Of a stretch of 64,000 bases of DNA, positions 45,301 to 52,812 are shown one piece after another; within the stretch, counting starts at the first letter, position 1; every line of letters starts with the position of its first letter. Source of the stretch: Sphaerolaimus hirsutus (taxonomy: Eukaryota > Nematoda > Chromadorea > Monhysterida > Sphaerolaimidae); contig OZ038450.1 of NCBI GenBank assembly GCA_964036195.1, positions 3,226,701 to 3,290,700 of the forward strand. The letters run 5' to 3'. Below the pieces are notes generated by a model. The model saw nothing but the letters and a program-made list of their open reading frames with translations, ran no database searches and was not told the DNA's origin. The position numbers and the translations under genes are program-made.

Positions 45301-48300
45301 ATATATTTTACCCAAAACTCTCCGGTAAAGCTCCTAAAATTGATTCCGAATGTATTGCAATCAATCACTTCTACAGCAAGGCACCTAAATTATATATTTA
45401 AATTTACAAAGACAAATGCCCAGGTATGTATACTTCGAAATCAAATCCTACCCTATTTGCACAACAATAGAAGGACCGGGGGCAAATAATTACACAATGT
45501 CCACTGGTTTGACTCATAGTCAAGATCAACACACCTTACAAAACTCAAGCAAATTGGCCCCCTATGGAATGTCAGTGTTTAGTTGAAAATGGATGCACAG
45601 AGTTGGTAATTGGGGTGTACTGAGCAGACCGCAGTAAAAACTAATTGCAACATACCATGATTTGAATTATATTGCTGCCACACAAGCTAGGTTTCATGGT
45701 TCCAATTTGAAAACTCAACCGAAATCTCGTTAACCTTCTTAAACAGTAGTTCATGGATTGATCATTTCTGTAAACTGATAATTGCATCATAATACTAGTG
45801 TGCTGAGTCTAAGTGGTCAGTTACAGGATGGTGGAAGCATTAATCAGTGTTCACGTCACAATTTCAGTTTTTTTACATGTTTTCACTTTGGAACCATGAA
45901 AACTAGCTTGTGTGGCCACAATTTTGGGAGATCAATTATGTGATTCTAAATTCTAAATTAGTTCATGGGAAGTCAATCAATTTGGATGGAATATATAATT
46001 TTTCATTTATTAAGATGAATATGGTAGCTTCAGTGCAAAATATGCAGGCTGTAGACCTAGGATCATTTTGGCACCAGCTTTTATGTGATGTGGTGAAAAA
46101 GTGCTGATGATTGCTGCTCAGTTTTCTTGTTCTTTTTGTAAGAGTTTACCAAAACATTGTTGGATTTTTTACCGCATACTCATTGTACATGTTGAGGTGG
46201 GTCAAAAAATGATACAAATATTACAGAGATAAAAGAAAGCAATGGGAAATTAATTTATGTGTAAACAGCATTAATTTTGCATAGCTGTAAGGCTGTGGTT
46301 CAAGTCAGCTCTTCTTCTTTAGCTTAGTTCCTCCACAAAAATCAGTATTGCATTATCAGGAGCTCAGCACTATCAGATGCTCAGGACACTTCAATAGCTG
46401 CATGGAACCCAATGTTAAATATTCTGCTCAGGACACTTCAATAGCTGCATGGAACCCAATGTTAAATATTCTGCTCAGGACACTTCAATAGCTGCATGGA
46501 ACCCAATGTTAAATATTCTGCTCCCAACACAACATTCTCAAAAACTTGTCAAAATCCAGAAGACAACTCTGCTACACAGAAACACACCACTGCCCACGTG
46601 CGGCCACTTGTACTCGCGTTGCATTTGAACACACGCATCACAATTCACAATGTGATCAAATGTTCATGTGATCGATAGTGAATGGTGAATAAGATAGTGG
46701 AATGAAGTCAATAATGCGACTTTTGCACATGCGTAAAGGTTATACAAAATTGCAGTGACTACTGCGCTTGAAAAGAATGGGGTATGGGGATGTTAGGCGA
46801 TCAGGTGCCAATCCCAGAATTGTAAAATGTATATGTCGTGCAAAGTGTCTAAACTTATGTAAAATGGCCTGGAAATGGCAAACATTTCTTACTAGGTATT
46901 TAGAAAAAGAGTCTCGTTGGGTTGAGAGTGCGACCATATATTCTATTCAATACCAAATATTAGAAACGTCCATAAAAAATCAAATATCGGATATCGGATA
47001 AAAGAGTCACCATCATAAATAGGTTCTTAACCCTAACTCATTTGCTCAGAAAGTAGGTATCACTGAACACCAGATTCTACCTAATCACTCGCGGCAGAAA
47101 ATTATCCCACTAGAAGGAAGAAAACTAATATACTCCGGTGAGTTCAAACCTTGCACGCGTGGTTCACGCTGGAAGCCTGCCAACAATATTTAACGCATAC
47201 CACTTTCATATAAAAAATTAGAAAATCTATTGTTGTTATAACGTTTTCCGTTTTTGTTTCTTAAAATTATATTTTCACAAAAATTACATGCTCAAATAAC
47301 CGTTGGCACACTTCCAAGGTGAGACATAAATAACTGCGCGTGCAAAATGCCACGTCACAAGCCACTCCACTAAAGTACCCCAAACAGGACACAAACCACA
47401 CCCAGAAGAAACCTCCAACCCAATAGGACCTACCATAGGGGCGCCCTTGGCAACGTGCCCATTAGCCTTAACGCCAGGTAGCTTATCCAACTGCTCCAAA
47501 ACTTGACTAGTCCACATATTGACCGCGGCCGCGTCGCCGATCTGCAGTCGATGCAGCGACTGCAAATCTTCCCGCCGCGGCGGCACATTTTCCCGCCGCT
47601 GCAGCGGAATAAGGCCGCCGTTGTGCTGCTGGCTGGCACGCTGCCAATGGAGATCTTTGACCGACTGGGAACGCTGCTGATCGTATAGGGAGCGAGTCAT
47701 TGATAGCGCTGGATCTGGAGATGGGTGCAGTTTTGATTTGTGGTAGAAAAAAATCGAGTGGCGATTTCTTATAACTGGATGTGAGTGACACCGATTTAAG
47801 TTAGATTGTGTTTCGGCAGAAGTTTCCCTGAAAAATGTTTTTTTTTGCGACAGTTTAAAAATAGAAAAATTGTTTAATGGTATATATTTTTAAGGTATGG
47901 GTCAATTTGATAAGCAATGAGCATCTAGGTGACTAGTGATATAAAAGCGCCATGGCACTGGCGCCTGGCGCTAGCGCCAAAGCAAAAAGGGCGCTATTTT
48001 CCTGTGGCGCTATTGGCGCTTGGCGCCATGCCCATGAAAAGCGCCATGGCGCTTTTGGCACCTGGCGCTATTTCTGACCGGCGCCAGGAACCAAAGTCCT
48101 GGCGCTTTTCACATCACTAGTGGTGACCCTTCGCGCTAGTGCAAATGCAAAATGCGCCATGGTACTTTAGGCGATGTGGCCTAAAAACCGCTACAGCGCT
48201 TGGCGCCAAAATCGTGGCGCCTTTTAACTTCCTTCTAGTCCATGCTAAATACGGAAACAAAAGCGAACGCATGTGACAAAAACGACCGCGCGACAAATCG

Positions 48301-51300
48301 TTCTGCAGGAATCCAGTTTTGCCCAATTCGCAAAAAAATATCGCCACTTTTTATCCCATTCTTAAAAAAACAAACACTTCAAACCGACCGGCGTGCGCCA
48401 ATCTTCTCCTAATCCGGCGCTCGAGCGGCGAGCACGCGTCCAAATTTTGCGCAGTCGCGACGGCACAACTACCGATGTCGCCCTGGGGGCAGTCCCGGAC
48501 CCTGTAAAATGCCCTGAAAATGTCAAATGTCAGGCAAAGTGTCAAAAGTCATGTAAAATGCCCTGCAAAATGGCAACTCGGTTGCCAGTTTGCAGGGTAT
48601 TTTACATGACTTTTGACACTTTGCATGACATTTGACATTTTACAGTGCATTTTCCAGGGTCTGGGACTGGCACCTGCAGCCTTCGCTGCGGCTGCGGTTG
48701 CGGCTGCAGGTGCGACTTGGGCGGCTTGAGGCCGCGGCGCGACAAGTTGGTCGGACGGCGGAAACGAGACTGTTTTCGAAATAATTTCAAGTTTTAGTCA
48801 AATCGTTCAATGATTAAAAGTTTACTTGATGGTACTAAAATAATTTATGTTCATTCGAACTAATTGCCGCACCGCACACTGAAATTTTGCGTTCAGCGTT
48901 CGAACGTTTTTGCACGCTGAACTACAAATGCTGAAATCAAAATCTCAAGAACCTAACATTTTTGAAGCGTAAAACCGTTCGGAATTTGCAATATTCGCGT
49001 AATTGGCATGCAAGCCGCATTTTTACGCTTCAAAAACGCATTGTTCTGTAGATTTTGATTTCAGCGTTTGTAGTTCAGCGTGCAAAAACGTTCGAACGCT
49101 GAACGCAAAATTTCAGTGTGCGGTGCACCATTCAATCCAAATGATGACTACTGGGAAAAAGGCTTGTGCAAACGGCAATGGCAACGCGTTTTTTCAAAAA
49201 TCAAAGTTCACATTTTCTAAATATCGCTTTTAAAACCGGGTTGAAAAAACGCGCGCCACCTGACACCAACAGTTTTTCTATTTGAATTGAAAAAACGTCT
49301 ACAATCAAGTGCAGGTACCTTTTGATTGATTTCGTCGTCACTATTCGAACTGCTCGATGTCGCCGCTGCGGAACGATCCAGACACGACGGATCGACAACC
49401 TGGGAAAAATTTTTTGGGTAAAGTGAATGCGCATCAATTGACTCAACTTTTTGTTATCACTATCGATAAAACGTAGCAATTCTCTTATCACTGCAAGTGA
49501 TCAACAGCAAACTAGCAGCAGACAACAAAACAAAAATTTCCCATTCGCGGTGAAATGGGAGAAATGGAGATTCGGTGGAGAAATAGAGCAGTTTAACTCC
49601 GCTTAAGCGGCAGATAAAAGTTGTCTTCTAATACAGAAGCCAGTGTTTATGACCTGGGGCCACTCCCAGACTCTGTAAAATGTCAAGCAAAGTGTCAAAA
49701 GTAAATTGTCATGAAAAATGTCAAACGTCCTGTAAAAGGAAATTTCACATTCTACGGGGCAGTTTAGATAGCTTTTGACACTCTTCATGGCATTTTACAG
49801 GGCCTGTCGTGGTCCCAGATAACGATTTTTAGTCAACCTCAAAAGCTTCGTCAATCTTTTCTGGCACATCGAAAATATCCCGCCCTTCTAGGGTTCAAAC
49901 GGGACCGCGGTCCCGGTACATGGTTCGGCAAAAAGTCGGGATTAGGGCGGTTCCAGTCCCAGCCACCCAGTCCCGGTCCCGGTCCCGACACTAGAAAATT
50001 TCTGGTCCCGGTCCGAAAAACTGGTCCCGTTTGAACCCTACGCCCTTCCCACCTGAGTAGCCGATCTCCTAGAGTTTCTTCTCCGAACGGACCGCCTTTT
50101 TCTGTATTTCGTCACGGGCACCTTGGTCACGTCCGCATTCGTCCCGTTCACAAAAGAACTGCGTACCTGCGAAAAAAGACGTGACGATTTTGATGGATAG
50201 CGAAATAAAAAATTGAAAATTGAAACACTATTTTTTTAACAGTGGCACGAAAATGATGTAAAAAGTGCAGGCACCGTATCGGACTTTTTCACCGAGTTTT
50301 ATTTATGGAAAAGCGCCAGGAAAAGTATGGCGCCGTTGGCATTAGCGCCAGTACTTAAAAAAGCGTCATGGTGTTGCGGTTGGCTAATGTCTGCAGCATG
50401 ACCGGTCAGCATTCCAAAGATCTCGGAAGATTTATTTTTTAATACAAGAAATAGAAATGTCATTCATCACTTTTTATGTTAATTATTATTTATCCAGGAT
50501 TCTACAGAATATCTACCTAAGTATATTTTGTTTTCTAAAAAATATGTATAAGATTTATATTTTTACAGGGTTTTTTCAATAGGTAGGGAAATTTTTTATC
50601 CAATTTGATCAATTCAGAGGTTCAATTCTATTTTTAAAATCAAAAATTATTTTATTTTTTTTATCAAAAAAGCGCCAGAGTCACGACGCCATTTAACCCC
50701 ATCACTACAATTTAATAAAATGCAACATTGGCATCATTTTTAACCTAAAAAGCGTGACCCCTCAAAAATCGGCCGAGCGTCAGAAATGAGTGAAAACAGA
50801 GGAAAAATTCGGCGAGACTTCACGCGGCGCATTAGCGATACGCATAAAATCGAATCGAAATGAATGAAACATCATCGGAAAATAAACGGAATCATGCAAA
50901 TTCGAATTTATCATGCCTGAATATTATGTGAAACGAATATTCACAAAATCAGAACAAAACTGGTAAAATAAAAATGCGTCTTTTTGATAAATGGCCAATA
51001 ACAGTCGACGGGACCATATGGCATGAAATCGAAATGAACCCATTTGTTTATTATTAAATGTCTCATTATGAAATTGCGGCCATATTTAGTAGATTGCACG
51101 CGCAATGATCTTGAAAATGGTGATCAATTTTTATGAGAATTCATCGAAACGAGTGAACAATCTGTTCAAAATATCGTTTGCAGTGATTTGTATTATCGAG
51201 AAAATAGATACAGCGTGTCCAATTTTTTCCATAATTTTAGCACAAGATGGTTTAAAAACAGCATTTGAAAATTGACCAATTTTCAAAATCTCATGGAAAA

Positions 51301-52812
51301 TCAAGAAAAACTCTGCAGGTAGCCCAAAATCATAAATATAATACTGTATTAAATCGGACCACACACTGTGCAGCACGAGCGGCAGTAAACTAGATAAAAT
51401 AGATTCAACTTTATTTCAAATGAGATATTTAACTTGCGGTGATCGGTGATAACACTAATCATGAGTTATTACAGCACTATTTAACGATTATTATCACAAC
51501 CAAGCCATTTACACCCAATAGTAAATGTGTTGGTCAATGATAAATTCTGAGACCAATTGAGATTTGCATAAAATGATTTTTATTTTATCAGTGGTGCAAG
51601 TAGACAAGTGAATAGATAATGTCGATAAAAGTTTTGAGTGATAGGTCAAATAAGAAGTCCAGTGACAAGTAAATTTCTTGATCAAAATACTAATATACTC
51701 CAGTTACTTTACACCTTGCACGCGTGGTTCCCGCTGGAAGCGTGCCAACAATGTGTAACGCATGCGATTGCCATAAAAAGTTGCCGAAATTCATTCCTGT
51801 AATAACGTGATACGTAACATATCCGCAACGATTATTTTTTTCATCTTTATACAAGGATGGCATGCCTTAATTATTATTGGCACGCTTCCAACGAGAGACA
51901 TAAATCAGTGCGAGTGCAGAGTATCAAGTTCGCCGAGTATACTAGAAATTTTTCATATAATTTGTCCACATGCGAATTTCTCCCATTGTTATTCTCGAAC
52001 ACAGAAAACTTTTTCGGCTAAACAAGATTTCACCTGTCAAAAAAGCTAGACATTGCAGTAAAAATAACACTACTCAGCGCCGTTTTGCACGCAGAAAAAT
52101 GACAGCAAGAAAAACAGTTGACATTAAAACAGAAAAATGTCAATTGTTAACCTCCGTTCTTCGATTCGTTTTGGTTTTCTGGTTAAACTTTGACGTTGAT
52201 CTTTCATATGACGATAGTTTTCTAAATACCGTATTTGCTTGAATCTTGCCCCTTGTGAATAATACCCGTGCGAGATGAGTGAGCAAAAATAATTTCCCCT
52301 CGAAAAATTCCCCCTATAGGAATATACCTAGCTAGTCAATTTTTGTGTCCAATTTGAACAAGGTGTTTTTTCGTTTATAAACAATACATTGTTCAGAATC
52401 AATATTGACAAACATGTGGCATTTTTTGACGAAATAAACCTCCCTTGCTAAATTCCTCCCCTAGAATAACACCCCCCCCCCCCAGAAAAGTTCCCCCTCA
52501 AAAGTCTTCACAAAAAGATACTTCTCCAGGAGAACTTTTCAAGCAAATACAGTATTTTGTCCTTTCAAACACTGGCAAAACGAAAAACGATCCACTAACC
52601 ATCAAATCATCTTCCAAATTTCCCGCGTGATATCCGTTCTGCACAAGGTCGGCTTTTGGCGCCTTGCCAGCATTTTCAAATCCATATCCAGCCCGATCGA
52701 AAGAATTTGCATAACTTTGATTAGTAGCGGCATAACCCGGGTGGCAACTGGCTGACATAAAGTGATTTTGGTGGACATAACTTTGGTTTTCGGCGTACCT
52801 GTCCGTGTTCAT
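1..52812 (-). CDS. 20-exon gene model, Ser/Gln/Tyr-motif-rich scaffold-like protein, 3' end beyond window
   Basis: Joined exons (5' to 3'): 52812-52600, 50166-50053, 49399-49319, 48769-48674, 48482-48389, 47714-47434, 39780-39459, 39028-38817, 20552-20319, 18879-18645, 14308-14106, 13796-13555, 12988-12862, 11964-11649, 11246-11070, 10333-10227, 9856-9584, 8889-8727, 8291-8122, 362-1. Seen: each exon is a GC-rich island in AT-rich DNA, each has AG before and GT after, and all 19 junctions conserve phase, so about 1,340 codons are open. Arg-rich patches lie near residues 90-106, 137-149 and 188-196; a Gln/Ser-rich stretch near 825-880; tyrosine motifs YDNC (621), YDNV (825), YDEP (1030), YDTP (1093), YANV (1102), YDNI (1336). 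No signal peptide, membrane helix or catalytic motif is apparent. Inference: an intracellular, largely disordered adaptor or scaffold. The NHS/Guanylate-kinase-holder family is a weak candidate. The ATG at 52812 is the best visible start, but exon 1 has its own acceptor, so coding may begin further upstream. Confidence 0.8.
812..966. mobile_element. family A fold-back element, degraded
   Basis: The right arm (ATGACTTTTGACACTTTGCA ... GGGGTCTGGGATTGCC) is clear; the left arm is diverged (AGACCTTGTAAGATG). Confidence 0.6.
1245..1447. mobile_element. family A fold-back element, near full length
   Basis: Left end GGTGCCACTCCCAGACCCTG, right end TCTGGGACTGGCACC, with long inverted arms. The outermost bases CTGGTGCCA...TGGCACCAG are palindromic, so both strands begin GT and end AG one base in. 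It is the best copy for defining the element's ends. Length about 200 bp, no coding capacity. Confidence 0.75.
2415..2815. repeat. GGCGCC-rich stretch with AAGTGACAAGT arms
   Basis: Many GGCGCC/TGGCGC hexamers at 2,428-2,470 and 2,630-2,810, with an inverted pair GCAAGTGAAAAAGTTC / AACTTGTCCACTTGCGG at 2,508 and 2,580. Confidence 0.45.
4826..4978. mobile_element. family F element (GGGGTCTCCAAGATTTTGG)
   Basis: GGGGTCTCCAAGATTTTGGC, CTCGCGGGGGCTGGATAGAT and TCGCTCCTCCGGAGGGATAG, then a long G run/C run pair ending TAGGTGACCCCTG. Shared with 23,907 and partly with 21,640. Confidence 0.55.
6600..6650. repeat. 24-bp tandem duplication
   Basis: ATTCAGTTGACATATCGGTT occurs twice in direct succession, in the intron between exons 19 and 20. 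Confidence 0.7.
8122..8291 (-). CDS. exon 19
   Basis: Acceptor ACCATCTCAG preceded by a C run, donor GAG|GTGCGT. Two leading bases complete Ala; AYPFSRPRTSSHYDSAELP, a poly-Ala/Gln stretch, then RYAGSMDRQLIGSANELHL. It is followed by a 7,759-bp intron. Confidence 0.75.
8727..8889 (-). CDS. exon 18
   Basis: Acceptor CAATTTCACAG, donor CAAG|GTGAAT (phase 1). 54 codons: ASMGAYTPQHQGSSAAGYN, YYKSMPSLAPDFPDGF and the acidic DDMDDSDS. Confidence 0.8.
8979..9228. mobile_element. family C fold-back element
   Basis: Ends TATACTCGGCGGACATGATA and GTAAAGTAACTGGAGTATA. The inverted inner arms contain GTGCCAATGATGATAAAGCG and TCGTTGGCACGCTTCCAGCG. Located in the intron between exons 17 and 18. Confidence 0.6.
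9584..9856 (-). CDS. exon 17, cluster of tyrosine motifs
   Basis: Acceptor CAAATCCAG after a C tract; donor AAG|GTGGGT; 91 codons, phase 0 both sides. It encodes RHIYDEPYPASPDYSPP near the start and IYDTPPDQSLYANVHSEK at the end, with Gln/Ala/Arg-rich sequence between. YDxP matches the preference of Crk-type SH2 domains and YxN that of Grb2-type SH2 domains (established for those families). That these sites are used here is inference. Confidence 0.8.
10227..10333 (-). CDS. exon 16
   Basis: Acceptor CTACTGCGCAG chosen because it alone gives the two leading bases that exon 15 requires (an AG 14 bases upstream would shift the frame). Donor TGG|GTCAGT. It encodes LLHATASETRAMYVHGASSG, a Gln run and ARFHKDAW. 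Confidence 0.65.
10657..10898. mobile_element. family D fold-back element (CACACACTAGTT ends)
   Basis: GTGCCTACACACACTAGTTT at the left and TGGTGCAAACTAGTGTGAAG at the right, with GTTTTCACATCGG/AGTGTGAAAACCG as inner arms. Same subfamily as 16,152. Confidence 0.6.
11070..11246 (-). CDS. exon 15
   Basis: Acceptor CACCACCAACAG, donor CATG|GTGGGT. Two leading bases complete Ala; ADRPLPAEPDDPLHQHL, then ARSNNDVGGTVDATADF and VVLQHRRGVGGAQRPH. One base is carried to exon 16. Confidence 0.7.
11649..11964 (-). CDS. exon 14, Gln/Ser-rich with YDNV
   Basis: Acceptor CCGCCGCAG, donor TTGG|GTACGT (phase 1). 105 codons: VLLESQYDNVSGSQQQ, an SQSQSQAQSHAS repeat, PPPPAAQHQHTN, then the more ordered QYWLARRGLLRPTVDAW and ADRASFLDQNIDL. 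This last part is the least repetitive piece and the best probe for homology. Confidence 0.8.
12374..12797. mobile_element. family H element (GGACGTAGCC ends, poly-C core)
   Basis: GGACGTAGCCAGGGTAGGCC at the left and AAAAATCCCGGCTACGTCCCTG at the right are inverted. The interior holds C runs and a GGCGCC-rich stretch (12,608-12,680). Located in the intron between exons 13 and 14. Confidence 0.55.
12862..12988 (-). CDS. exon 13
   Basis: Acceptor ACCCCCCCTCAG and donor GGGGG|GTGGGC, phase 0 out. One leading base completes Lys from exon 12; then 42 codons YPFSVTAGGAAYQKLITHHA ... AARLSRG. The donor sits in a G run, so its exact base is uncertain, but only this GT gives the phase that exon 14 needs. 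Confidence 0.7.
13189..13507. mobile_element. family B (TACCGTATTT-ended) element
   Basis: Left end ATACCATATTTGCTTGAAT and right end GCAAATACGGTA are inverted. The interior has repeated AATTCCCC(T)CGAATA blocks and C runs. Located in the intron between exons 12 and 13. Confidence 0.6.
13555..13796 (-). CDS. exon 12
   Basis: Acceptor with a 13-base C tract then TTCAG; donor AA|GTGAGT (good consensus, phase 2). It encodes SSTTRTSASSLGKLSD, a Gln/Thr/His repeat (TQSHTQTQ) and KAGMPYKLPINAPIEK across the junction. Confidence 0.8.
14106..14308 (-). CDS. exon 11, Ser/His/Gly-rich
   Basis: Acceptor ACCCCCACAG, donor CAG|GTGGGT. Two leading bases complete Asp, giving DSWLSTTGSLSTHSHSH, then a Gly/Gln-rich tail. 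Two other open frames cover this DNA, but only this one joins exons 10 and 12 in phase. Confidence 0.75.
14363..14519. mobile_element. family A fold-back element
   Basis: GCCACTCCCAGACCCTGTAA at the left, TTTTACAGTGCCTAGGATT at the right. It lies about 55 bp upstream of the exon 11 acceptor, inside that intron. Confidence 0.65.
15258..15703. mobile_element. family B element, intact
   Basis: Ends TACCGTATTTCCTCGAAATA and its inverted copy TATTTCGAGGAAATACGGTA. Two blocks of C-run plus TCGAAATACCCC and TCTCGGGACCACTATGAAAC flank a 250-bp core. It closely matches the copy at 43,982. Confidence 0.75.
16152..16401. mobile_element. family D fold-back element
   Basis: GGCCCTACACACACTAGTTT at the left and GGTGAAAACTAGTGTGTGTA at the right; inner arms ACTGAAATGGCGACA and AATTTCAGTTTTCACACG. 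Confidence 0.65.
18645..18879 (-). CDS. exon 10, YDNC motif
   Basis: Acceptor AACCCCCACAG, donor GATG|GTAAGT (good consensus, phase 1). 78 codons: TSRPRPPALPPHKKHPF, DACTQTSPLD, STSFTWMTDASFSGLGG and EYDNCDED. The proline-rich start could bind SH3 domains (inference). Confidence 0.8.
18980..19095. repeat. GGGATC-array element, family E-like
   Basis: It begins AGGGTTCAAACGGAATCGAC like the copy at 49,890, but the repeated core is GGGATC/GGATCC. It ends near TCGGGATCCCGTATGG. Confidence 0.45.
19214..20151. mobile_element. family E element: GGCACC-array fold-back
   Basis: Left end TAGTGATGTTAAAGGCACCG and right end CGGTGCCTTTACATCACTA are inverted. Both arms (about 200 bp each) are dense irregular arrays of GGCACC/GGTGCC. 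The 500-bp middle is AT-rich and unrelated. It lies entirely in the intron between exons 9 and 10. Confidence 0.65.
20319..20552 (-). CDS. exon 9, Asn/Gln/Ser-rich
   Basis: Acceptor ACACTTTCAG, donor CAG|GTTTGT; 78 codons, phase 0 both sides. LSDSPQHQNHA, an Asn run and GGGTYFVTVRKPSPG, the only hydrophobic strand-like stretch in the exon. Because it is phase-symmetric it could be skipped without a frameshift. Confidence 0.75.
21340..21715. mobile_element. family F-related element
   Basis: CATGTAAACCCGCTAGGCAT and ACGGGGGTCTCATGGAGGAG at the left; TCCGGAGGAGCGATTTGCTA and CTTGGAAACCCCTGATCC at the right. Confidence 0.5.
22345..22517. mobile_element. family A fold-back element
   Basis: GGCACTCCCAGACCGCGTAA at the left and a diverged right arm ending AGTGGCACT. 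Inside the 18-kb intron. Confidence 0.6.
23907..24364. mobile_element. family F element
   Basis: GGGTCTCCTAGGGGGGCTGG at the left and AAATCTTGGAGACCCCTG at the right (inverted). The interior carries CAGCTATCTATCT and CGGAGGAGCGATTTGCTATC. Confidence 0.55.
24462..24715. mobile_element. family A fold-back element with expanded right arm
   Basis: GTGCCAATCCCAAACCCTG at the left; the right arm has several copies of ATGACTTTTGACACTTTACA and ends TTGGAGTGCC. Confidence 0.6.
26062..26365. mobile_element. AAGTGAAAAGTGA fold-back
   Basis: AGGAGAAGTGAAAGGAGAAGTG at the left; on the right, repeated CACTTTTCACTTCTCATTTC blocks run in the inverted sense. Confidence 0.5.
28985..29110. repeat. GACCCGAATCGG-type array
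   Basis: Irregular repeats of AACCGACCCGAATCGGTTT and AACCGACTCGGATCGG. A related stretch lies at 29,430-29,515 (ACCCGACAAA, GTCGAGTCGGGTC). It resembles the family E style with another core. Confidence 0.4.
30101..30316. mobile_element. family D fold-back element, different arm sequence
   Basis: GGCCGCACACACTAGTTTAC at the left, GTTAGTAAACTAGTGTGTGC at the right. The inner arms TGGGTGCCCATAAAACAGCT and GCTGATTTATGAGCACCCAA differ from those of the 16,152 copy. Confidence 0.65.
30495..30622. mobile_element. family A fold-back element, short
   Basis: GAGCCACTACCAGAGCCTGT at the left and TTTTACAGGGTCAGGGTCC at the right. Confidence 0.5.
30839..31078. mobile_element. family A fold-back element
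   Basis: GGTGCCACTCCCAGACCC at the left with three successive TCATGCAAA/TCATGTAAAATG units; the right arm is short (TTTTACAGTGTCTGGAC). Confidence 0.65.
31741..31860. mobile_element. family A fold-back element, ends missing
   Basis: The internal motifs TGTCATGTAAAATGTCAT and GACATTTTGCATGTCATT form an inverted pair, but the terminal TCCCAGACC sequences are not visible. Confidence 0.4.
32695..32930. mobile_element. AAGTGAAATGGCAAATGCG fold-back
   Basis: CTGGTGCCAATTCCGCAAATTGAG at the left and CTCAATTTGCGGAACTGGCCCC at the right are inverted, with arms of GAAGTGAA and TTCACTTC repeats. Confidence 0.55.
34455..34732. mobile_element. family F-related element
   Basis: GTAGACATGTAAACCCGCTC at the left and GGTCTACATGTCGGGTTTACATGTC at the right, an inverted pair. 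It ends 35 bp before the family B composite. Confidence 0.5.
34768..35356. mobile_element. family B element, composite
   Basis: Begins TACCGTATTTCCTCGAATAA and ends TTCGAGGTAATACGGTA. An internal ATACCGTATTACCTCGAAAT near 35,010 shows that one copy inserted in or next to another. Confidence 0.6.
36111..36456. mobile_element. family A fold-back element, enlarged
   Basis: GTGCCACTTCCAGACCCTG at the left. The right arm carries repeated CATGACATTTGACACTTTGC units and ends CTTGAAACTAGCCCC. Confidence 0.55.
37016..37189. mobile_element. family D fold-back element, different arm sequence
   Basis: GCGGCCCACACACAAGTTGA at the left, GTCAACTAGTGTGCGGGCCG at the right; inner arms TCAACTCAGATTTCGG and GAAACCGAAATCTGAGTTGA form a long perfect stem. 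Confidence 0.65.
37955..38248. mobile_element. family A fold-back element
   Basis: GGTACCAATCCCAGGCCCTG at the left and TTTTACAGGGCATTTTAAG...GTCTGGGACTGCAC at the right, with about 100 bp of unrelated sequence in the loop. Confidence 0.6.
38817..39028 (-). CDS. exon 8
   Basis: Acceptor TCCCACACAG, donor GAG|GTTGGT. Two leading bases complete Asp; then 70 codons including PFILIDRSSQPTLIISDQ, STVIDLESSRCDDTLRV and a Ser-Gly dipeptide run. It is followed by the largest intron of the model (18,264 bp). Confidence 0.8.
39459..39780 (-). CDS. exon 7
   Basis: Acceptor AATTCCCAG, donor CAAG|GTGTGC (one spare base, phase 1). 107 codons: AAVSTSALSSGQSRAKSLSK, an Asn run (ASNNNNG), and LALARRRLDEACDELMQ, which could form a short helix. 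Joins exon 8 through a split Asp codon (G + AC). Confidence 0.8.
39825..39890. mobile_element. family C fragment
   Basis: AATATACTATGCGGACTTGA and CTGCACTCGCAGTGATTTAT resemble one end of the family. It lies 45 bp upstream of the exon 7 acceptor. Confidence 0.35.
41003..41396. mobile_element. family A element with tandemly amplified right arm
   Basis: GCCCAGTCCCAGACCCT marks the left end. The rest is six to seven head-to-tail copies of a 50-60 bp unit containing ATGACTTTTGACACTTTGCA and GACATTTTACAGG. Two consecutive copies from about 41,231 to 41,330 are identical at period 50. It ends ATCTGGGGGTACC. Confidence 0.65.
42229..42600. repeat. cluster of GGACTTGTCGACTTTTAG motifs
   Basis: One inverted copy (TAAAAGTCGACAAGTTC at 42,230) and four direct copies of GGACTTGTCGACTT near 42,389, 42,463, 42,549 and 42,580. 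A similar AAAGTCGACAAGTTCAA is at 7,828. The spacing is irregular. Confidence 0.65.
43490..44965. mobile_element. large fold-back with nested family B element
   Basis: The left arm has ACCCATCGACTCGCAAGCCAAAGTAC and TTATTAAAGCCATG repeats; the right arm has GGCTTGCGAGTCGACG, GGCTTTAATAATGACAC and TTTGGCTTTACAGTCGATGGG in inverted sense. The family B element at 43,982-44,444 lies between the arms. Confidence 0.5.
43982..44444. mobile_element. family B element, nested
   Basis: Same ends and core as the copy at 15,258 (shared TGTAGTTTGTGTTCTGTGTA, ACAGTTTATACC-like core and AGAACCTTATAAATGGC). It sits inside a larger fold-back whose arms lie near 43,490-43,740 and 44,800-44,960. Confidence 0.7.
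45675..45919. mobile_element. family D-like fold-back element
   Basis: TGCCACACAAGCTAGGTTTC at the left and GAAAACTAGCTTGTGTGGCC at the right; inner arms CATGGTTCCAATTTG and CTTTGGAACCATGAA. Confidence 0.6.
46380..46520. repeat. 47-bp perfect tandem triplication
   Basis: Three identical copies of a 47-bp unit beginning CTCAGGACACTTCAATAGCT (46,380, 46,427, 46,474). No mismatch seen, so it is recent, or possibly an assembly artefact. Confidence 0.85.
46805..46885. mobile_element. family A fragment (left arm)
   Basis: GGTGCCAATCCCAGAATTGT, then GTCGTGCAAAGTGTC. The right end is not recognisable. Confidence 0.4.
47129..47352. mobile_element. family C fold-back element
   Basis: TATACTCCGGTGAGTTCAAA at the left, CTTGCACGCGTGGTTCACGC inside, and ACCGTTGGCACACTTCCAAG plus ACATAAATAACTGCGCGTGC at the right. 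Confidence 0.6.
47434..47714 (-). CDS. exon 6
   Basis: Acceptor ATCTCCAG (an alternative AG six bases inside keeps the same phase), donor ATG|GTAGGT; two leading bases then 93 codons. It encodes MTRSLYDQQRSQSVKDLHWQ, later RRENVPPRREDL, and an amphipathic stretch NMWTSQVLEQLDKLPG. The high G/C at third codon positions singles out this frame from two overlapping open frames. Confidence 0.75.
47933..48120. mobile_element. family E element: GGCGCC-array fold-back
   Basis: Left end CTAGTGATATAAAAGCGCCA and right end TGGCGCTTTTCACATCACTAG are inverted. The interior is an array of GGCGCC/TGGCGC hexamers. Located in the intron between exons 5 and 6. Confidence 0.65.
48389..48482 (-). CDS. exon 5, Arg-rich
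   Basis: Acceptor GCCCCCAG, donor GCCG|GTCGGT; starts in phase 0 and ends with one spare base, exactly what exon 6 (two leading bases) needs. It encodes GDIGSCAVATAQN, then SPLERRIRRRLAHA. Without this exon the junction from exon 4 to exon 6 would shift frame, which is independent support for it. Its acceptor AG is the outermost end of the fold-back element forming the upstream intron. Confidence 0.7.
48483..48673 (-). mobile_element. family A fold-back element forming a complete intron (introner-like)
   Basis: The 191 bases between exons 4 and 5 are one inverted-repeat element. Both arms, about 90 bases each, carry the family A sequence (CAGTCCCAGACCCTG, then TGTCAAATGTCATGCAAAG). In the gene's orientation it begins GTGCCAGTCCC and ends GGGACTGCCCCCAG. 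Nothing lies between the element and the splice sites. CAGG is found at both edges and might be a target-site duplication or simply exon consensus. Confidence 0.75.
48674..48769 (-). CDS. exon 4, basic and Pro/Gln repeat
   Basis: Acceptor TTCGAAAACAG, donor CTGCAG|GTGCCA; 32 codons, phase 0. It encodes SRFRRPTNLSRRGLKPPK and a QPQPQPQ run. The pyrimidine tract before the acceptor is poor. The donor GT lies inside the terminal repeat of the fold-back element that forms the whole next intron. Confidence 0.65.
48866..49128. mobile_element. fold-back element, possibly family D
   Basis: GCCGCACCGCACACTGAAAT at the left and ATTTCAGTGTGCGGTGCACC at the right with very long, nearly perfect arms (GCGTTCAGCGTTCGAACGTT on both strands). 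Located in the intron between exons 3 and 4. The transcript would form a stem of about 100 bp. Confidence 0.65.
49319..49399 (-). CDS. exon 3, Ser-rich acidic
   Basis: Acceptor TTTTTCCCAG, donor AAG|GTACCT; 27 codons, phase 0 on both sides. It encodes VVDPSCLDRSAA followed by a Ser run and the acidic SDDEINQK. It follows the Arg-rich exon 2 directly in frame. Confidence 0.75.
49656..49817. mobile_element. family A fold-back element
   Basis: GGGGCCACTCCCAGACTCTG at the left and TTTTACAGGGCCTGTCGTGG at the right. It lies within the intron between exons 2 and 3, away from the splice sites. Confidence 0.6.
49890..50040. mobile_element. family E-like element: GGTCCC-array fold-back
   Basis: AGGGTTCAAACGGGACCGCG at the left and CTGGTCCCGTTTGAACCCTA at the right are inverted; between them are repeated GTCCCGGTCCCGGT blocks. 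Only about 12 bp from the exon 2 donor. Confidence 0.6.
50053..50166 (-). CDS. exon 2, Arg-rich patch
   Basis: Acceptor TTTTTTCGCAG and donor CAG|GTGGGA; 38 codons, phase 0 on both sides. It encodes VRSSFVNGTNADV followed by a very basic stretch with the core YRKRRSVRRRNSRRS, which could act as a nuclear-localisation, membrane or RNA-binding patch (inference). A second in-line AG eight bases inside the exon would break phase with exon 1, so the outer AG was chosen. Confidence 0.75.
51691..51940. mobile_element. family C fold-back element
   Basis: ATATACTCCAGTTACTTTAC and CTTGCACGCGTGGTTCCCGC at the left; ATTGGCACGCTTCCAACGAG and CAGTGCGAGTGCAGAGTATC at the right. Best pair of arms in the family. 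Confidence 0.65.
52227..52554. mobile_element. family B element
   Basis: TACCGTATTTGCTTGAATCT at the left and AAGCAAATACAGTA at the right, with AATTCCCCCT blocks and a C run. It starts about 45 bp inside the intron after exon 1. Confidence 0.6.

Follow-up and report, generated by a model that had tools for sequence, protein, structure and literature searches.

The intron between exons 4 and 5 of a minus-strand gene in the window (the whole stretch of 64,000 nucleotides analysed here, at 3.23-3.29 Mb of contig 1 in a genome of 348 Mb and 762 contigs) is, as far as the DNA can tell, part of a new animal introner family in a nematode-like host, with unusual acceptors. It belongs to a family that numbers hundreds of intact-ended copies, some of which would act as introns without an AG. 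It is very likely that the family is a fold-back DNA transposon inserting at C(A/T)G, that sense insertion into an exon creates an intron with the donor in the element and the acceptor in the target site duplication (TSD), and that TG ends are tolerated and later changed from T to A. How new introns arise has long been asked, and in the accessible part of a 2022 survey introners were all but missing from animals (PMC9860276). Here an intron source is visible as hundreds of intact-ended insertions with a clear target rule, and the series CTG/CTG, CTG/CAG, CAG/CAG could allow the evolution of acceptors to be measured.

On the minus strand, exon 4 ends in ...CGAAGGCTGCAG (48674), followed by GTGCCAGTCCCAG...GGGTCCGGGACTGCCCCCAG (48673-48483) and exon 5, GGCGACATCGG... 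(48482); the intron begins with GT and ends with AG, and its boundaries and sequence in the initial annotation were confirmed on this strand. The 191-bp intron had been described as one element from end to end. The fold-back does fill it, but the element proper is a 188-nt MITE (48486-48673), 2.7% away from the family consensus, and the remainder is one copy of a 3-bp target duplication, CAG. The terminal repeats had also been credited with both splice sites, which holds for the donor GT but not for the acceptor AG. The latter is target-derived, because the two CAGs are the two copies of the duplicated C(A/T)G. An origin of both splice sites in the inverted repeats of the element was rejected for the family as well, since C(A/T)G acts as a TSD and, in the SLC4 and VMAT genes, alignment shows the CTG to be an original Leu codon. 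The window element folds at -131.1 kcal/mol against a shuffle mean of -47.7 (z -18.6; none of 200 shuffles as good).

The gene model, based on reading frame and GT/AG alone, has six exons (52812-47434, minus strand), GT-AG introns and 293 open codons (Table 1). In this model exons 4 and 5 are joined in phase 0, with the frame running on into exon 6 (47714-47434), in agreement with the earlier statement that this join is needed for the frame. The model frame of exon 5 is the top of six by codon score (0.26); that of exon 4 is not favoured (0.27, versus 0.30 and 0.31 in other frames), and upstream of the exon 4/5 join the best codon frame is antisense. Homology searches with the window protein returned no homologue in the protein collection, and exons 1-5 had no Pfam family above the cut-off. 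The exon 4/5 join is thus a predicted one. The window copy is probably spliced out as a GT-AG intron, and its reading as an introner is strongly supported by the family evidence. By eye, intron 3 of the same gene contains a large palindromic repeat (CACCGCACACTGAAATTTTGCG..., 48868-49135), seemingly unrelated to the introner, and GCGCCA/TGGCGC palindromic motifs form a dense array beside the gene (47940-48230).

Table 1. Features of the window gene (window positions) and family copies within conserved genes (locus handles).
Feature	Location	Strand	Splice sequence	Basis or remark
Exon 1, coding part from ATG, 213 nt	52600..52812	-		
Exon 2, 114 nt	50053..50166	-		
Exon 3, 81 nt	49319..49399	-		
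Exon 4, 96 nt	48674..48769	-	acceptor ...cgaaaacag	open frame and splice signals only
TSD copy 1, CAG, final codon of exon 4	48674..48676	-		genome-wide TSD pattern
Introner/MITE proper, 188 nt, GTGCCAGTCCC...GGGACTGCCCC (GTGCC...GCCCC)	48486..48673	-	holds GT donor	near-complete inverted repeat
TSD copy 2, CAG	48483..48485	-	candidate AG acceptor	sequence
Exon 5, 94 nt	48389..48482	-	donor gtcggt	open frame and splice signals
Exon 6, 281 nt	47434..47714	-	acceptor ...catctccag, donor gtaggtcc	
Col_cuticle_N, 1.8e-12	L018		acceptor CAG	domain spans join
SLC4	L030		acceptor CAG	domain spans join
VWA	L037		acceptor CAG	match exactly at Pfam cut-off
MAM	L045		acceptor CAG	match below Pfam cut-off
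7tm_1	L011:3619		acceptor CTG	domain spans join
Glutamate transporter	L022		acceptor CTG	domain spans join
Kir channel	L026		acceptor CTG	domain spans join
C2H2 zinc finger	L032		acceptor CGG	domain spans join
BCKDH E1-alpha	L050		acceptor CTG	from CTG/CTG-only fetch
VMAT	L059		acceptor CTG	from CTG/CTG-only fetch
P5A-ATPase	L065		acceptor CTG	from CTG/CTG-only fetch
GPCR introner copies	L011:2809, 3619, 4898		GC-AG, GT-TG, GT-GG	

The element is no chance occurrence: at E<=1e-3 a profile search located the family in 20 stretches of the window, the intron-4 copy included; the 19 others bear out the earlier count of at least 15. A DNA search of the same genome gave 2682 first-look candidates, of which 40 were scored and the other 39 of these fetched. 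Candidate ends were paired for 53 family stretches in 300 kb. Leaving out copies outside 170-200 nt and L028, a near-duplicate of L014, gave 46 copies for the consensus; the other window copies were also left out for codon scoring and orientation (45 copies), and five divergent copies for arm divergence (41 copies). L019 and L044, which seem to be two copies of one locus, were both retained. The family consensus is 189 nt long with 88 base pairs in its stem, so terminal inverted repeats are present. The arms can diverge, with 252 single-arm changes in the 41 copies. Changes in both arms numbered 52, of which 46 still paired, versus 22.7 expected under independence; these were not used as evidence for RNA structure, because some of them turn up in more than one copy and an identical pattern would result if one arm were copied onto the other at the DNA level. 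The asymmetry of transitions among copies (A>G 60, T>C 45, G>A 38, C>T 27) was uninformative. The donor is mostly GT and rarely GA or GC, the count of GT (40 of 45 copies) being biased upward because the orientation of the element was assigned by its GTGC-like end. One introner in a cysteine-rich coding exon (L010:4899) has the donor GA in place of GT (GA-AG). Genome-wide exact-end matches also contained a second subfamily (CAGTCCCAAGCCCTGTAAAGTGTAAAGTAAAG...) with the same ends and TSD and a different interior.

The family duplicates a 3-bp target, C(A/T)G. Among 354 exact-ended copies genome-wide, flanked by C(A/T)G and counted with segmental duplicates, 170 were CAG/CAG, 104 CTG/CTG, 51 CTG/CAG and 29 CAG/CTG, and a reversed-pattern control gave no match in any of the four genome-wide searches. 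The two sides agree in 274 of the 354 (Fisher odds ratio 12, p=9e-25). When the C and G of the 5' flank were required and the middle base left free (41 copies), the latter was A in 15, T in 26 and never C or G, and the base next to the triplet at the empty site was G in 33 of the 41. A 5-bp TSD, CCWGG, was dropped, since bases beyond the 3-mer are not repeated (e.g., L009 and L030). On the acceptor side the middle base can be A, T, G or C across copies, and 133 of the 354 exact-ended copies end in TG, not AG. CTG/CAG exceeds CAG/CTG (51 versus 29, p=0.018 with duplicates included, which inflate the CAG/CTG count; 10 versus 0 in the similarity-ranked set), and this suggests that a T-to-A change to AG was later favoured at CTG acceptors. 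Visual inspection assigned 15 of the 29 CAG/CTG sites to two sets of near-identical copies. Within 0.8 Mb (G000:C9:24957538-25757087) there are eight similar copies of the CAG/CTG type, 188 or 207 bp long, which are apparently duplicates of one insertion.

The firmest cases are 11 fetched copies that interrupt a conserved domain, in which excision of the element and one TSD rejoins the domain across an exact junction (Table 1); in conserved genes the protein is restored with no gap there. Eight come from the similarity-ranked set and three from 20 hand-picked CTG/CTG loci; the hand-picked loci comprised 20 of the 104 CTG/CTG and 12 of the 51 CTG/CAG copies. A Pfam match at E<=0.01 was obtained for 13 of 30 joined proteins and none for 17 (10 of 20 in the first set, 7 of 10 in the CTG/CTG set). 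Matches at L011:4898 and L021 do not cross the junction, the nAChR-like match of L021 beginning there and therefore giving no test of the join, and the match at L064 was weak and not counted. Weak Sr-type chemoreceptor matches also occurred among the joined proteins; together with the one Col_cuticle_N exon, they are the reason for describing the host as nematode-like. The Kir gene (L026) has six exons and five joins, four at ordinary GT-AG introns and one at the element (GTGCC...CCCCCTG). Its product of 292 residues matches Kir2.2 over 288 residues (E=2.7e-95) with no gap at the element join. A peptide GPCR gene (L011) with a match to cholecystokinin and related receptors (E=1.2e-29) carries three introner copies in addition to two ordinary GT-AG introns. 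By eye, the glutamate transporter exons around L022 seem intact.

These joins bear on the age of the introns. The element might have entered a pre-existing intron whose own sequence then vanished, the boundaries coinciding through trimming, and the palindromic repeat within intron 3 of the window gene indicates that insertion into introns does occur. We consider this extremely improbable: both boundaries are the TSD scar, the joins in conserved proteins are exact, and the same geometry recurs in unrelated genes. For the verified copies, where the boundaries are the insertion scar of the transposon itself, insertion into an older intron was rejected. Intron gain by transposon insertion, as proposed in the initial annotation, is thus supported by the family, with ends that equal the element plus one TSD and frame-exact joins in conserved genes.

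The coding strand is the sense strand of the element in 11 of 11 domain-verified copies. Codon scoring of the 45 copies of the similarity-ranked set found coding-like flanks on both sides in 33. The best frames were on the same strand in 25 of these (frame offset 0/1/2 in 23/1/1), the strands disagreed in 8, and 10 of the 33 were discordant altogether. By joint score, 19 of the 33 were sense, 1 antisense and 13 unclear; by separate best frames, 20 of 23 were sense and 3 antisense. Ten of the scored loci had also served to train the codon model, which makes this result partly circular, and the domain cases therefore carry more weight. Among the 20 CTG/CTG and 12 CTG/CAG copies of the second set, 10 and 7, respectively, were concordant, all sense, and 15 were discordant; the 20 CTG/CTG copies split into 10 concordant, 6 of them with coding-like flanks, and 10 discordant. 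L059 scored as discordant though it lies in a verified VMAT exon. By eye, L040:908 and L042:909 may be antisense in coding exons (donor side GG, acceptor side AG), in contrast to the general sense bias. Orientation also bears on a removal from DNA in the soma, like that of ciliate IESs, by which the mRNA would never contain the element. An exactly restored frame with one TSD left, irrespective of AG, would suit such a process, which we nevertheless regard as very improbable, since the sense bias favours an event at the RNA level, as does the higher number of CTG/CAG than of CAG/CTG copies.

The window copy ends in AG as a canonical GT-AG intron does; the family as a whole does not. An element in a CTG target has no AG at the seam, and 7 of the 11 domain-verified copies have a non-AG acceptor (TG or GG), three of the seven coming from the CTG/CTG-only fetch. 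Ordinary GT-AG splicing at the seams cannot explain all copies, as there are exonic ones with CTG or CGG acceptors. It is possible, if on balance doubtful, that only the AG-ending copies are real introns, the CTG/CTG and CGG copies being disruptions that are tolerated, alleles of recent origin carried by the assembled haplotype, or introns spliced at an ordinary GT/AG elsewhere in the element or exon. Human TG 3' sites, in the accessible text of the report on them, occur only as alternatives linked to AG and never as sole sites (PMC2374985), and the excess of CTG/CAG over CAG/CTG given above likewise makes AG seem preferred. Alternative GT/AG pairs were searched up to 60 bases from the seams and inside the element. 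At L026, L022, L011:3619 and L032, even the cheapest in-frame alternative would alter between 7 and 14 residues of conserved segments (7 to 21 when L016 is added), and no in-frame, stop-free GT-AG alternative was found within the range searched at L011:4898 and L033. Among 13 of the 20 hand-picked CTG/CTG copies, two have cheap ordinary sites (L062, 1 residue; L057, 4 residues), as a restriction to AG would have it, but nine cost at least 8 residues and L050 and L054 have no in-frame, stop-free alternative in that range. The Kir and GPCR genes are otherwise open and conserved. Moreover, single-arm change per site is the same, 3.5%, in 12 CTG/CTG and in 21 CAG-ending copies, so that the former are not younger and do not resemble fresh insertions that are still to be purged. 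With a dispensable AG one would not expect CTG/CAG to be more frequent than CAG/CTG, and with an essential AG one would not expect CTG/CTG to survive in intact genes; the data lie between. We infer that TG-ending copies in conserved genes would be removed at the TG, or at another base after mutation.

In C. elegans, SOS splicing removes inverted-repeat transposons from mRNAs. The hairpin could similarly be the signal here, with a structure-guided, partly spliceosome-independent excision regardless of the end bases. We take this to be unlikely as the account of the family, yet a serious rival or helper. It would fit the 88-bp consensus stem, the freedom of the acceptor middle base, the exact joins in verified cases and the two possible antisense exonic copies without GT, and an excision of this kind was hypothesised, in the part of the study available, for Amoebophrya introners with hairpins, 3-5 nt direct repeats and non-GT-AG ends (PMC7789003). 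A symmetric signal should, however, ignore orientation, against which stand the uniformly sense domain-verified copies, the 19 of 20 copies oriented by joint score and the 20 of 23 oriented by separate frames; the arms are also free to diverge. Our literature search found no paper on SOS splicing, and the term is absent from the accessible text of a 2026 review of non-canonical splicing (PMC13149111). The spliceosome is the probable excising machine, because orientation matters and GT stands at only one end.

We therefore return to the spliceosomal introner as the preferred reading. A non-autonomous fold-back transposon would enter C(A/T)G, usually with G next, and duplicate the three bases. 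When inserted in sense in a transcribed exon, it would form an intron made of the element and one TSD copy. The end of the element would serve as the 5' splice site, with GT or, rarely, GA or GC, and the second TSD copy as the 3' splice site. A CAG target would give an immediate GT-AG intron with the coding sequence unchanged, and the window copy may be such a case. A CTG target would give an intron ending in TG, removed there with a relaxed acceptor, and a T-to-A change to AG would be favoured later. There is about an even chance, in our estimate, that RNA structure replaces AG in defining the acceptor, so that the host can bear an insertion at any exonic C(A/T)G, with selection later converting many TG ends to AG, a two-step birth of introns.

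In the accessible text of Gozashti et al. 2022 (PMC9860276), introners are similar to each other up to the splice boundaries, and many families have terminal inverted repeats (TIRs) and short TSDs. The sequences studied here likewise contain similar elements up to both splice boundaries and exonic insertions with the frame restored by removal. The arrangement of their Figure 2C (Chrysochromulina), with the 5' splice site in the element and the 3' site from the TSD, is the same as ours, and GA and GC donors occur there too (PMC9860276). That family has 4-bp TSDs and no TIRs, whereas here the whole element is a fold-back and the TSD is C(A/T)G; and, unlike the introners of that survey, many acceptors here are TG or other non-AG (PMC9860276). 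As far as the available text goes, the survey found introners in two animal groups only and does not contain the word nematode (PMC9860276), whereas the animal studied here has a cuticle collagen exon of nematode type. Amoebophrya introners, from the accessible part of their description, share hairpin introns, inverted repeats, 3-5 nt boundary direct repeats and many non-GT-AG ends, but have widely varying end bases and no family-specific inverted repeat, in contrast to the one family with a GT-type donor seen here (PMC7789003); a literature search on Euglena nonconventional introns found this same paper only.

The ordinary introns examined here (four in the Kir gene, two in the GPCR gene and those of the window gene) are GT-AG. 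CTG as an acceptor is common to our copies and to human U2 TG 3' sites, which, in the text available, are alternatives near an AG, whereas here TG would be the sole frame-restoring site in most copies tested (PMC2374985). If the TG ends are used, they would break the rule reported there for human introns that TG is never the sole 3' splice site (PMC2374985), and the role of RNA structure in the choice of acceptor would become directly testable. Tunicates are likewise animals with introns outside GT-AG, for which the authors consider introner transposons with weak splice sites a possible origin; according to the accessible text, 95% of tunicate introns escape GT/AG, whereas here the exception is tied to one element family (PMC13326754). 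Limited intron gains were detected in Caenorhabditis and no source sequences were found, as stated in the part of the paper available (PMC9169325). Our search of titles and abstract openings, with preprints and most subscription papers outside it, returned no report of a nematode introner. One pair of loci dates an insertion relative to a gene duplication: L014 and L028 are near-duplicate genes, 16 kb apart on contig 13, with the same introner insertion, which is therefore probably older than the duplication.
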